64,000 bases of DNA, from NCBI GenBank assembly GCA_903836465.1, contig CAILRB010000017.1, forward strand, positions 1-64,000, given 5' to 3'. The first letter of the stretch is position 1. Each line of letters begins with the position of its first letter. The notes beneath the pieces are model-generated. The model saw nothing but the letters and a program-made list of their open reading frames with translations. It was not told the DNA's origin and did not search any database. Source of the stretch: an uncultured Chlorobiaceae bacterium. GTDB lineage: Bacteria > Bacteroidota > Chlorobiia > Chlorobiales > Chlorobiaceae. The position numbers and the translations under genes were made by a program. This document shows, piece by piece, positions 18,637 through 22,208 of the stretch.

Positions 18637-20757
18637 TCAGAAGGTCTCTGTTAAACCCACTGTAAATGAACGGCCCGGTCCTGCAAGCGCCTCAATGTTT
18701 CCGTTTGGTTTAGTATGCAGGAAGTTATCATAATTGATACCACCAAGCGGAAGAGAATAGAACTTGTCGAACAAGTTCGTTACTCCCAGATCAACACGCA
18801 GGTTTTTCCATTGATATGCCGTACGCAGATTGACTAAAGCATAGGCAGCCGTCTTCGGTTCCAATCGAAGCGGATCGATCTCGAACTTCCTGCCAACGAG
18901 CTGCAGCTCCACCGCATTATTCCATCCAGCAACATTCTGTTCCAGTGCAAAATAGCCGCTCAGCGGCATGATATGATACAGCCCGCTTCCTGTATCGAGG
19001 TCCTTACCTCGCACATATCCAAAACTACCCCGAAGTTGTCCGGAACCAAGAGCGCTACTCTTCCAAAGAGGCAGTTTCCCTGAGATGTCGAAGCCATAAA
19101 GCCTGGCATCGTGATTGATAAACTTGAGTATATCACGTATCTCAGATGTATAGCTTTTGGAGCCCACCTTGATTACTCCAATATAATCATTGATATAGGT
19201 GTAATATGGCGTCACCTTCAACTCCCAGGTCTTGTGTTGGCTGTCGTGCCAGTCTGCAGAGAAACTTAGTGTATTGGCGACTTCGGGCTTGAGGTCCAGA
19301 TTCCCCACATAGCCATTGGCATCTCCAAACCAGTTGACCATCCCGCTGCACATCCAGTTTGTCGCCCAGGCGTAACGTTCGTAGAGATTTGGAGAACGGG
19401 TCTTTCGGGCAAAGCCGACCTCATAAGTCGCCGTAGAGGCTGGCTCAAACCTGGCCAATGCGGTCATGTCCCAATTGCTGTCGTTACGGATATGATTCTG
19501 AGTATTAAAGGCATTAGCAGGAATAGTGTAGACCGACGAAGTCAAAGAGTACCCTGAAACATCTCCCGTATCCATTCGAACTTGCTCGTTACGCACACCA
19601 AGAACGGTCGTCACCTTTTTGTTCCACCTCGACTCCCATTCGGCAAACACACCGTAGCGATCACGTTTGCCATTATTTATGTTTAAAAAGCTCTCAGGCG
19701 ACATCCCGGTACCAGCAACAGGTGGCCACTTGTCATCAAGGGTAAATCGATGGAACTCGTGACCAAAACGCAGGATGTTCTTCTCGGCAAAGGGAATCTC
19801 CGTCTTCAGCGAATAGCCGAGATCTATACCCCGTGTCTCCATCGGCATATCAGGCATACTACTCACCAATACTACTTTATCTTCACCGGAATTCATTTTG
19901 TGGTATGTATTCTGCCAGTAAGCCTTTGCGTCCAGTTTCCCCCAGTCATAATCACTCTTGTAGCGAAGATTGAAAAGTGATGCATTATTTTCAATCATAT
20001 CCATCCACTGGTTGACAAATCCCTGACCTGGAATGAATTGGTGCCCTGCCTTAAATGTCAGCAGACTGCTGTCGCCTTTGACGGCCAGGGTGGCCCCGAT
20101 ATTACGCGATTCATAATAGGTTGATGTCACCGAATTGCCATGACCGTCCCTGTAGTTGTTCGCATGGTCGATGGAGCCTGTCAGGCCAAAGCTGACGTTG
20201 CTGCCAGCGAGCGCTCCGGAAAATGAAGAACCGATGCTTTGGTTAATGCTTCGGTAGTAAGCCGAAACGCTGCCCGACTCTCTGATTCCCTCGCCCGGCC
20301 AGGAAAACACTGGCGGATCGGATTCAACAAGTATTATGCCGCCAATGTTATCGCCGCCATAACTGACCGGCGTAACACCTGCTTTTACCCCTATGCTGCT
20401 TACACTGGCAGAAGCGATGTAGGATAATGGTGGATTCATGTGGTTGGCGCAGGCCGAGGTCAGACACATGCCGTCAACATAGGTCAGTACACGGTCATCC
20501 GCCAGTCCATGAATGACCGGCAAGCTCGAAACACCACCTCCCGCAGCAAGAGCAACTCCAGGCATCCCATTGAGCAGTGCCGCAGTATCACTGCTTTTCA
20601 GCCGTTTGGATACCATTGATTCCTCAGCTTTTTCTGACGGTGCAGTAACAACTGTTTCCTGGCTTATTGCCTCCTTAGAATACGCTGACAAGGGCTCAGC
20701 CAACGTTAACAGCAGAACGGCAAGAGGCTTTATAATATTTTTAGATTGCATATTCAT
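18637..20757 (-). CDS. OprC/NosA-like TonB-dependent copper receptor
   Basis: The 706-residue outer-membrane protein has a signal peptide (about 1-25), a plug domain with VVTAPSEKAEE and VIHGLADDRVLTYVDGM (81-97), and a 22-strand-type barrel ending in LTETF with a terminal Phe. It carries CANHM (C103 to M107) and HKM (H286 to M288), 183 residues apart. The OprC copper site is a CxxxM plus HxM set about 180 residues apart, so the spacing agrees. A Met-rich loop, MPDMPMETRG (301-310), follows. TonB-linked copper uptake is inferred from this. A small Cys-rich protein gene lies upstream on the same strand. Confidence 0.8.
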   Translation of the reverse strand: MNMQSKNIIKPLAVLLLTLAEPLSAYSKEAISQETVVTAPSEKAEESMVSKRLKSSDTAALLNGMPGVALAAGGGVSSLPVIHGLADDRVLTYVDGMCLTSACANHMNPPLSYIASASVSSIGVKAGVTPVSYGGDNIGGIILVESDPPVFSWPGEGIRESGSVSAYYRSINQSIGSSFSGALAGSNVSFGLTGSIDHANNYRDGHGNSVTSTYYESRNIGATLAVKGDSSLLTFKAGHQFIPGQGFVNQWMDMIENNASLFNLRYKSDYDWGKLDAKAYWQNTYHKMNSGEDKVVLVSSMPDMPMETRGIDLGYSLKTEIPFAEKNILRFGHEFHRFTLDDKWPPVAGTGMSPESFLNINNGKRDRYGVFAEWESRWNKKVTTVLGVRNEQVRMDTGDVSGYSLTSSVYTIPANAFNTQNHIRNDSNWDMTALARFEPASTATYEVGFARKTRSPNLYERYAWATNWMCSGMVNWFGDANGYVGNLDLKPEVANTLSFSADWHDSQHKTWELKVTPYYTYINDYIGVIKVGSKSYTSEIRDILKFINHDARLYGFDISGKLPLWKSSALGSGQLRGSFGYVRGKDLDTGSGLYHIMPLSGYFALEQNVAGWNNAVELQLVGRKFEIDPLRLEPKTAAYALVNLRTAYQWKNLRVDLGVTNLFDKFYSLPLGGINYDNFLHTKPNGNIEALAGPGRSFTVGLTETF

Positions 20758-20778
20758 ATTGACAGATAAATAAGTTAC

Positions 20779-20815
20779 GGATACCTTTCAATATTTCAAC
20801 AGTCCATTGGTATCC
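20779..20815 (-). promoter_or_regulatory. Inverted repeat in the leader of the TonB receptor gene
   Basis: GGATACC (20779-20785) and GGTATCC (20809-20815) are perfect inverted repeats with a 23-nt loop, 22 bp upstream of the receptor start. On the plus strand six or more T follow, but no plus-strand gene is nearby. It could be an attenuator or an operator; the function is not shown. Confidence 0.35.
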
Positions 20816-21035
20816 TTTTTTAATCTGGGATATAGGGTGAGATTTGCTATAACCAGTTAGCTGATCAATTACTCCAACCGGAAATATATCATGGCTTGCC
20901 CTATGTAAAGAGAGTCGTACCCTGAGATAATTTTTGAATGCGTAAATTCAAGGGGCAAAGAAAATGCCGCTGCATATAATTTATCGCAAGCCTTAGTATT
21001 AAGTGCGAGCATACTGAAAAAACCTCAACGTGACG

Positions 21036-21422
21036 CTAAGCTTTTGGGGGATGGTCGATTTGTACCTTGACACCGTCAGGTAAAAAAGAAGCACGGCGTG
21101 AAATAAACTTATTGCTCGTAGATATACGTTGAGGGGCACTCTGAAGCTTTGGCAGCATGGCTGGCATCGCATCAAGCAACTCTTCCAGTGTTTTGGTTGA
21201 TGCTTGCTTGCCTGAAGGGGCTGACTGGATATCGTTTGTCGCATTAATTTTTTTCAGCAAGAAACAATGCCCGCAGCAATCCATCACTTTCCGTTCACAA
21301 AGGGTTTCTGCAATCACTTTTTGATTAAAGACAAAAAGCCCAAAACAGACCGGAACACTGCTTATTTGCAAAAACATTGCACAAAGCATCAGAACTGCTA
21401 TGGACCGGGTCAGTTCGCTCAT
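21036..21422 (-). CDS. Small Cys-rich membrane or exported protein of the CxGxCFLxK type
   Basis: The 128-residue protein has an N-terminal hydrophobic segment (about 8-32) that is a signal peptide or membrane anchor. After it comes ERKVMDCCGHCFLLKKIN, and the C-terminus reads DHPPKA. From memory, many Bacteroidetes encode short proteins with a CxGxC-[FHYQ]-L-x-K core and an HPP end beside TonB receptors of copper type; this matches in arrangement. No function has been seen directly. The Cys/His cluster suggests metal binding. It lies upstream of the OprC-like receptor on the same strand, separated by 278 bp. Confidence 0.65.
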   Translation of the reverse strand: MSELTRSIAVLMLCAMFLQISSVPVCFGLFVFNQKVIAETLCERKVMDCCGHCFLLKKINATNDIQSAPSGKQASTKTLEELLDAMPAMLPKLQSAPQRISTSNKFISRRASFLPDGVKVQIDHPPKA

Positions 21423-21697
21423 AACTGAATGTGCTTTTTGAAATAAATGAGAAGATATTTATTATAAAGATTTTAACAATTGCAAACAAAATAACAACAC
21501 GTTTGCAGCAAGAGACAGGAACAGTCACCGACCGGATTTTTGGCTTAACAGGTCACAACACGAATAACTAAAGTAAAATGCATCTCAGTGAAAAAAACGT
21601 TTTGCCTTACGATATATAATTATTAAACTATTCGCTATAACGTAATGCCACAGATCTTCGTTCTGTAATTAATAAGTATAATGCCTGTATCACGACG

Positions 21698-22093
21698 ATG
21701 ACCTTAAAATCATTTATGCCTGTATTGACCGCAGGGCTCTTTTTTCTCGGCGCTTGCACCCCTGAAAAGCAACCTGACAACGAGGAACTTACCGAATCAA
21801 GAGCAGAAGCTTTAGCTGAGCAGAAACTTGCCACAGGCAAAAGGGTTTATGAGGCAAATTGTGCAGGTTGCCATGATGCTGGCGTGGCAGGGGCTCCAAA
21901 ACCTGGAGATAATGCTGCATGGAAAGAACGCCTGACTCCAGGGTTTGAGGTTATTGTTAAAAAATCAATCGACGGTTTTGATGGTAAATCAGGTGCGATG
22001 CCGCCAAAAGGAGGCAACGCTATTCTGACCGATGAAGAGGTATCGAATGCCGTCACCTTCATGGTCAGCAATACAAACACAACATCCCGATAA
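21698..22093 (+). CDS. Lipoprotein c-type cytochrome, c5-like
   Basis: The 131-residue protein has a lipoprotein signal (LGAC, Cys20), a charged linker, and one class I haem c domain: CAGCH (C55, C58, H59) with the likely sixth ligand Met101 in GAMPPKGG. The GAMPPKGG turn is typical of cytochrome c5 and c-555-like electron carriers. It should sit on the periplasmic face of a membrane and carry electrons. It is transcribed away from the Cys-rich small protein; the 275-bp gap between them would hold both promoters. Confidence 0.88.
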   Translation: MTLKSFMPVLTAGLFFLGACTPEKQPDNEELTESRAEALAEQKLATGKRVYEANCAGCHDAGVAGAPKPGDNAAWKERLTPGFEVIVKKSIDGFDGKSGAMPPKGGNAILTDEEVSNAVTFMVSNTNTTSR

Positions 22094-22208
22094 ATGGTCA
22101 TTTATCAGGATGCCGATATCTCTCTTCACATACACATAGATACACTCAGAAGCATAGCTTCCCATTTATATGTAGCTTCCGATTTGTTAGGAATAATAAG
22201 TACGGTGC

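Follow-up and report, generated by a model that had tools for sequence, protein, structure and literature searches.

What does a small, unannotated protein do when its gene stands directly before that of a copper receptor: does it handle the metal, or does it decide when the receptor is made? The question is raised by a locus on the minus strand of the window, by which we mean the whole stretch of 64,000 nucleotides of Chlorobiaceae DNA that was analysed. The initial annotation had described the small open reading frame (ORF) and its neighbor as a candidate uncharacterised uptake module. The family is indeed unannotated and lies beside a receptor, but we now prefer a regulatory role over copper handling. 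By analogy with the leader peptides CruR and CutF, the small ORF is probably a copper-responsive leader peptide that regulates the receptor. The features discussed below are collected in Table 1.

Table 1. Features of the small ORF, its upstream element and the receptor gene, in positions of the window.
Feature	Coordinates	Strand	Remarks and basis
TonB-dependent copper receptor resembling OprC, presumably the gene under regulation	18637-20757	minus	best PDB match OprC 6fok, E 3.8e-19
Receptor H286-K-M288, HxM half of the OprC Cu site	19894-19902	minus	alignment to OprC HIM
Receptor plug motif C103-ANH-M107, CxxxM half of the OprC Cu site	20437-20451	minus	alignment to OprC C..NRM
Spacer between small ORF and receptor, 278 bp	20758-21035	minus	no conserved structure, Rfam match or promoter
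Small ORF, putative leader-peptide gene, unannotated family	21036-21422	minus	128 aa
Codons for PP (residues 125-126) within the terminal HPPKA; candidate site of ribosome arrest	21045-21050	minus	PP in 86/86 members
Linker, residues 54-124, length-conserved and sequence-variable	21051-21263	minus	spacing, identity, pLDDT
Cys core C42-x6-C49-x-G-x-C53, putative Cu ligand	21264-21299	minus	family conservation
Single N-terminal hydrophobic segment, residues 8-30	21333-21401	minus	export/anchor signal
Promoter/operator-like element: TTGTTT (21489-21484), 17-nt spacer with CAATTG, TATAAT (21466-21461)	21461-21489	minus	conservation

The small ORF and its family

The one hydrophobic N-terminal segment, the DCCGHCFLLKK core and the HPPKA end listed in the initial annotation were all confirmed in the ORF, whose translation closes with DHPPKA. 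Its 19-residue mean hydropathy reaches 2.18 at about residues 8-30 and a second segment is absent. The segment is long enough for an anchor, is probably oriented N-in C-out and recurs in 82 of the 86 family members compared. AlphaFold predicts residues 1-40 as helix (pLDDT about 73-88) and disorder for most of residues 64-115 (pLDDT <50). The core reads C42-ERKVMD-C49-C-G-H-C53-FLLKK in the window and C-x6-12-CxGxC across the family, and it is a putative copper ligand.

Searches of Pfam and NCBIfam with the window protein and family members returned no fitting model. With a family profile made from the initial twelve members, matches were found in 154 (~40%) of 394 sampled genomes of the phylum, representing 67 of 170 genera. 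C42, G51, C53 and both prolines are conserved in 100% of the 86 members, followed by C49 (99%), I37 (95%), L55 (93%), N33 (91%) and K57 (90%). Given homologues in so many genomes and these invariant residues, the small ORF is real and more than a chance reading frame. In each of the 86 members, 1-9 residues separate the PP pair from the stop; the pair is preceded by H in 58% and by H, R, P or Q overall, with the two residues before it being mostly D or F, then H or R. Paralogue searches in the rest of the window's genome gave weak, stop-containing matches only, and plasmid records yielded just three partial matches, labelled 'hypothetical protein'.

The distance between core and PP is held far more tightly than the residues that fill it. 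The last Cys and PP are separated by 72 residues in 26 of the 32 Chlorobiaceae members and by 67 +/-1.9 (63-74) in the 54 members from elsewhere, while identity over residues 59-110 is 37% in the former and 11% in the latter. For comparison we took pairs of conserved anchors in MbnP, OMcys, SCO1 and TonB receptors that lie 55-85 residues from each other; the lowest-identity pairs, still above the family linker in identity, vary in spacing with an SD of 2.5-11. Spacings are tighter in MbnH and in some stretches of SCO1, although identity there is far greater. A fixed length without conserved sequence would fit a nascent chain stretched between ribosome and membrane; a folded chaperone would not require it.

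Copper modules behind the small gene

In the 6fok alignment the window receptor carries the CxxxM-HxM copper site, which has been described previously for OprC (PMC8610252, PMC11836926). It scores 138.9 bits against TIGR01778 (cut-off 472) and 139.2 bits against TIGR01785 (cut-off 317); because the first of these scores falls below the cut-off, we regard it as a distant OprC relative. Among 65 genomes of the window's genus, the named records of which are all Chlorobiaceae or Chlorobium metagenome-assembled genomes, the small gene was present in 25 and the receptor in 26. Both were found together in 25 and neither in 39, and in the sole discordant genome (G329) the receptor lies 100 bp from a contig end. 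Within the genus the small gene is thus gained and lost together with the receptor, a recurring pair that is stronger than the initial annotation had suggested; homologues beside receptors, whose absence it had named as grounds for dropping the idea, clearly exist. A strict CxxxM plug motif was seen in 33 of 53 family-adjacent receptors vs. none of the 12 further TonB receptors encoded in the regions sampled.

We also examined a broader neighborhood sample of 80 regions, mostly of 19 kb, plus the window, covering about 40 genera and 86 members. Neighbor classes were obtained by clustering and our own profiles, with representatives confirmed in Pfam/NCBIfam. Downstream and on the same strand, TonB receptors occupy the first place after the small gene in 45 cases and the second in 12. 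MbnP (PF20243) is first in 14, with MbnH-type MauG proteins then second in 14, and an unannotated outer-membrane-like protein with an N-terminal Cys cluster is first in 12 and third in 10. SCO1, YHS, YtkA and PCuAC are less frequent. A copper-module gene lies within three co-directional genes downstream of 85/86 members and upstream of 7/86; as the marker classes were picked from these same loci, it is this downstream/upstream comparison that serves as control and not the raw count. In 78 of 85 cases the small gene comes first in its unit (upstream gene opposite or >=50 bp off). Checked in reverse, 52 of the 101 MbnP genes examined, from a total of 116 in the same genomes, have a family member <=2.5 kb upstream. 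Some small-gene modules contain no receptor at all, the modules that follow can be without a single gene in common, and in tandem cassettes (L071, L072, L077, L078) each is preceded by its own copy.

The family is tied to copper, and it heads copper modules rather than partnering one protein. The tie follows from neighbors such as OprC-type receptors, MbnP/MbnH, SCO1 and PCuAC and from the CxxxM enrichment, which bear out the copper link suggested in the initial annotation. The family also marks the outer-membrane copper modules of these bacteria, comprising OprC-like receptors, MbnP-MbnH and the unannotated Cys-start outer-membrane protein.

Several further observations were made at these loci. 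The Cys-start protein, of ~320 aa and beta-barrel-like, begins with a Cys cluster (CDxCGCG, CAACGC), has no Pfam/NCBIfam match and was found at L053:6615-7541, L113:8197-9240 and 22 further loci; standing first or third after the small gene, it often completes an MbnP-MbnH-X module. Two of the tandem loci (L077, L078) consist of the small gene followed by YHS, SCO1 and superoxide dismutase genes and then a second copy followed by MbnP and MbnH. Among MbnP genes without a family member (L168:1759-2250, L174:760-1149, L167, L180, L187, L190), several are preceded by small ORFs rich in Cys and His that terminate in FHPP, TPP, RGPP or RDPP; this suggests that several unrelated leader families occupy the same position before MbnP. 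Four Chlorobium loci (L112, L114, L117, L122) have CbiM/CbiN-like and ABC genes, resembling cobalt transport, convergent to the receptor. In the window, a divergent lipoprotein-type cytochrome c gene (21698-22093) adjoins the small ORF and is kept in eight Chlorobiaceae loci, and a strong terminator-like hairpin of 16 pairs (22080-22115) lies downstream of it.

A probable leader peptide and its alternatives

Chlorobiaceae conserve the TTGTTNRCAATYGTNA/TATAAT element in front of the small ORF; it is a putative promoter and operator. The palindrome-like pattern TTGTTNRCAATYGTNA, which overlaps the promoter, has a single match in the 2.77-Mb genome of the window, at 21474-21489. Its ACAnnTGT core presumably resembles CopY/BlaI boxes. 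We rejected the operator-like pattern as a mark of a copper regulon, since its other matches fall within or beside genes that have no link to copper. The stretch from small ORF to receptor showed no comparable conserved promoter, nor was a conserved RNA structure found in the genus spacers (alifold energy about zero). The family mean of the spacer fold z is -1.58 vs. -1.12 in control spacers, a small excess, and the window's own value is +0.35. Rfam returned nothing relevant on the spacer, rut-like or Rho-type C>G skew in the spacers was no different from controls, and intrinsic terminators were not enriched after the small-ORF stop. A hairpin at 21040-21024, spanning the stop codon of the small ORF in the window, lacks conservation and is therefore probably due to chance.

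How might such a leader work? One promoter before the small ORF would give a single mRNA carrying both the ORF and the receptor. The N-terminal segment would take the nascent peptide to the membrane, so that C42, C49 and C53 could meet copper, while the ribosome at the last codons would pause on H/R-PP with the Cys core ~67-72 residues off. An arrest at the terminal PP is suggested by analogy with known leaders. Copper on the core would alter the pause and so control the receptor, and for an uptake module the sign should match that seen with CruR: scarce copper would sustain the pause and turn the receptor on, and plentiful copper would relieve it and turn the receptor off. The arrest may be passed on to receptor expression by Rho-dependent termination or by RNA unfolding. 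Since 67-72 residues exceed the ~30 of the ribosome tunnel plus the ~17 of the membrane (values used for CutF), the core would be periplasmic at arrest, judging from length only.

We prefer a regulatory role because of the receptor-free modules, the near-exclusive 5' position, the disordered linker of fixed length and the invariant PP, and the same features turn us away from the 'copper-handling partner' of the receptor that was originally proposed. The leader reading is also favored by a linker spacing tighter than that of comparably low-identity anchor pairs elsewhere and by a conserved promoter-like element that precedes the small ORF and not the receptor, as well as by the precedent of CruR and CutF and by the unrelated PP-ending small ORFs found before MbnP genes that lack this family. 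Against it count the H, R, P or Q before PP in place of RA, and the lack of DUF2946 similarity, conserved stem-loop, rut-like C excess or terminator excess. Were the finished protein instead to stay in the inner membrane as an anchored periplasmic copper chaperone or receptor partner, taking over copper from receptor or MbnP and delivering it to later carriers, a Cys core just outside the membrane segment, the strict co-occurrence of small gene and receptor and the copper-gene neighbors would all be expected. Such a chaperone is nonetheless unlikely in our view, as it leaves unexplained the invariant terminal PP, the constant length of an unconserved and disordered linker, the near-exclusive 5' position and the tandem copies that each head their own cassette.

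The same leader mechanism could also be sensing zinc, cobalt, nickel or the thiol/redox state. His-only CutF-like proteins precede Ni/Co genes (PMC9973294), cbiMNQO-like cobalt transport genes are convergent to the receptor at some Chlorobium loci and a Cys-based core could form disulphides, but the copper-specific neighbors in about 40 genera (MbnP, SCO1, PCuAC, OprC-type site) make another metal improbable, and we give this version little weight. We give next to none to a ribosomal precursor of a chalkophore-like copper-binding peptide, re-imported by the receptor or MbnP. A small Cys peptide adjoining a TonB receptor or MbnPH does recall methanobactin operons, yet MbnB/MbnC-like modification genes are not among the recurring neighbors and the conserved residues are spread over membrane segment, core and C-terminus rather than forming one core peptide. 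Returning to the copper-responsive leader, a more ambitious form of it can be put forward tentatively, and at less than even confidence: throughout the phylum the family may sense copper as a nascent chain, using an [H/R]PP arrest motif and a 67-72-residue ruler of its own and a core that is periplasmic at arrest and, unlike CruR, reads periplasmic copper directly, thereby filling the reported Bacteroidota gap in RAPP-type copper leaders.

Relation to CruR, CutF and other known systems

The name HYC_CC_PP, which we take to be that used by NCBIfam for Bacteroidota Cys-rich proteins with a C-terminal PP, was not found in the literature searched. These proteins differ from the present family in their Cys/His arrangement, and a look-alike heads the MbnP gene in L174.

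CruR of Bordetella (DUF2946, PF11162) is an upstream ORF with an N-terminal export segment, in which a CXXC motif senses copper; expression of the next gene, a TonB receptor, depends on a RAPP motif spaced 45 +/-2 from CXXC and three residues short of the C-terminus. CruR homologues head operons with TonB receptors, PepSY, MbnPH, SCO and PCuAC (PMC9426467). Arrest has been demonstrated in vitro (PMC12992588), and the copper that CruR senses is proposed to be cytoplasmic. The small-ORF family of Bacteroidota/Chlorobiota shares with CruR its place as first gene before a TonB receptor, the export segment, a Cys motif, PP near the C-terminus, a fixed Cys-to-PP spacing, a long spacer to the receptor and following genes of the OprC, MbnPH, SCO, PCuAC and PepSY types. 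As a leader should, it stands at the co-directional head of copper-gene units (85/86; 78/85). It differs in having C-x6-12-CxGxC for CXXC, [HRPQ]PP for RAPP and a spacing of 67-72 for 45. Membership of DUF2946 was rejected, PF11162 being absent from the window protein and 24 diverse members, and genome scans with this model stayed empty for the window's genome and yielded nothing above the cut-off in 61 family genomes. A RAPP/RGPP-based survey found copper-related leaders to be absent from Bacteroidota (PMC12992588); the present family would have been invisible to it because H/R-PP replaces RAPP.

CutF of Rhodobacter capsulatus has CxxxC and a PP-rich end and precedes a multicopper oxidase gene whose ribosome-binding site is covered by a stem-loop, with a sense opposite to CruR (PMC9973294). 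A survey of CutF-like proteins (<150 aa, cleavable Sec signal peptide, PP <=15 residues from the end, co-directional next gene <=1000 nt) listed 5,334, of which Bacteroidota made up 19%, or 40% after normalisation (PMC9973294). With trimmed starts, our family falls within its length, PP and spacer limits; the spacer is >1000 nt in L073 only and close to the limit in L066 and L080, and some members may already be on that list (PMC9973294). The family resembles CutF in being shorter than 150 aa, in having an N-terminal hydrophobic segment and a Cys motif, and in its PP near the end and co-directional next gene. It differs in spacing (45 vs. 67-72) and in the ribosome-binding-site stem-loop, the genus spacers having no conserved one and the window a z of +0.35; the 278-bp spacer fits a CutF-type mechanism poorly.

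Overall, these likenesses suggest that the family is most likely the Bacteroidota/Chlorobiota counterpart of CruR and CutF, and what appears to be new is a leader with a Cys motif, PP context and ruler different from those of the CruR/CutF kind. If this is true, it would explain an unannotated protein of ~40% of sampled genomes in a major phylum, and a peptide sensed during its synthesis would govern how Bacteroidota and green sulfur bacteria take up copper. It would also be the second case, after CruR, in which the distance from Cys motif to arrest site acts as a ruler.
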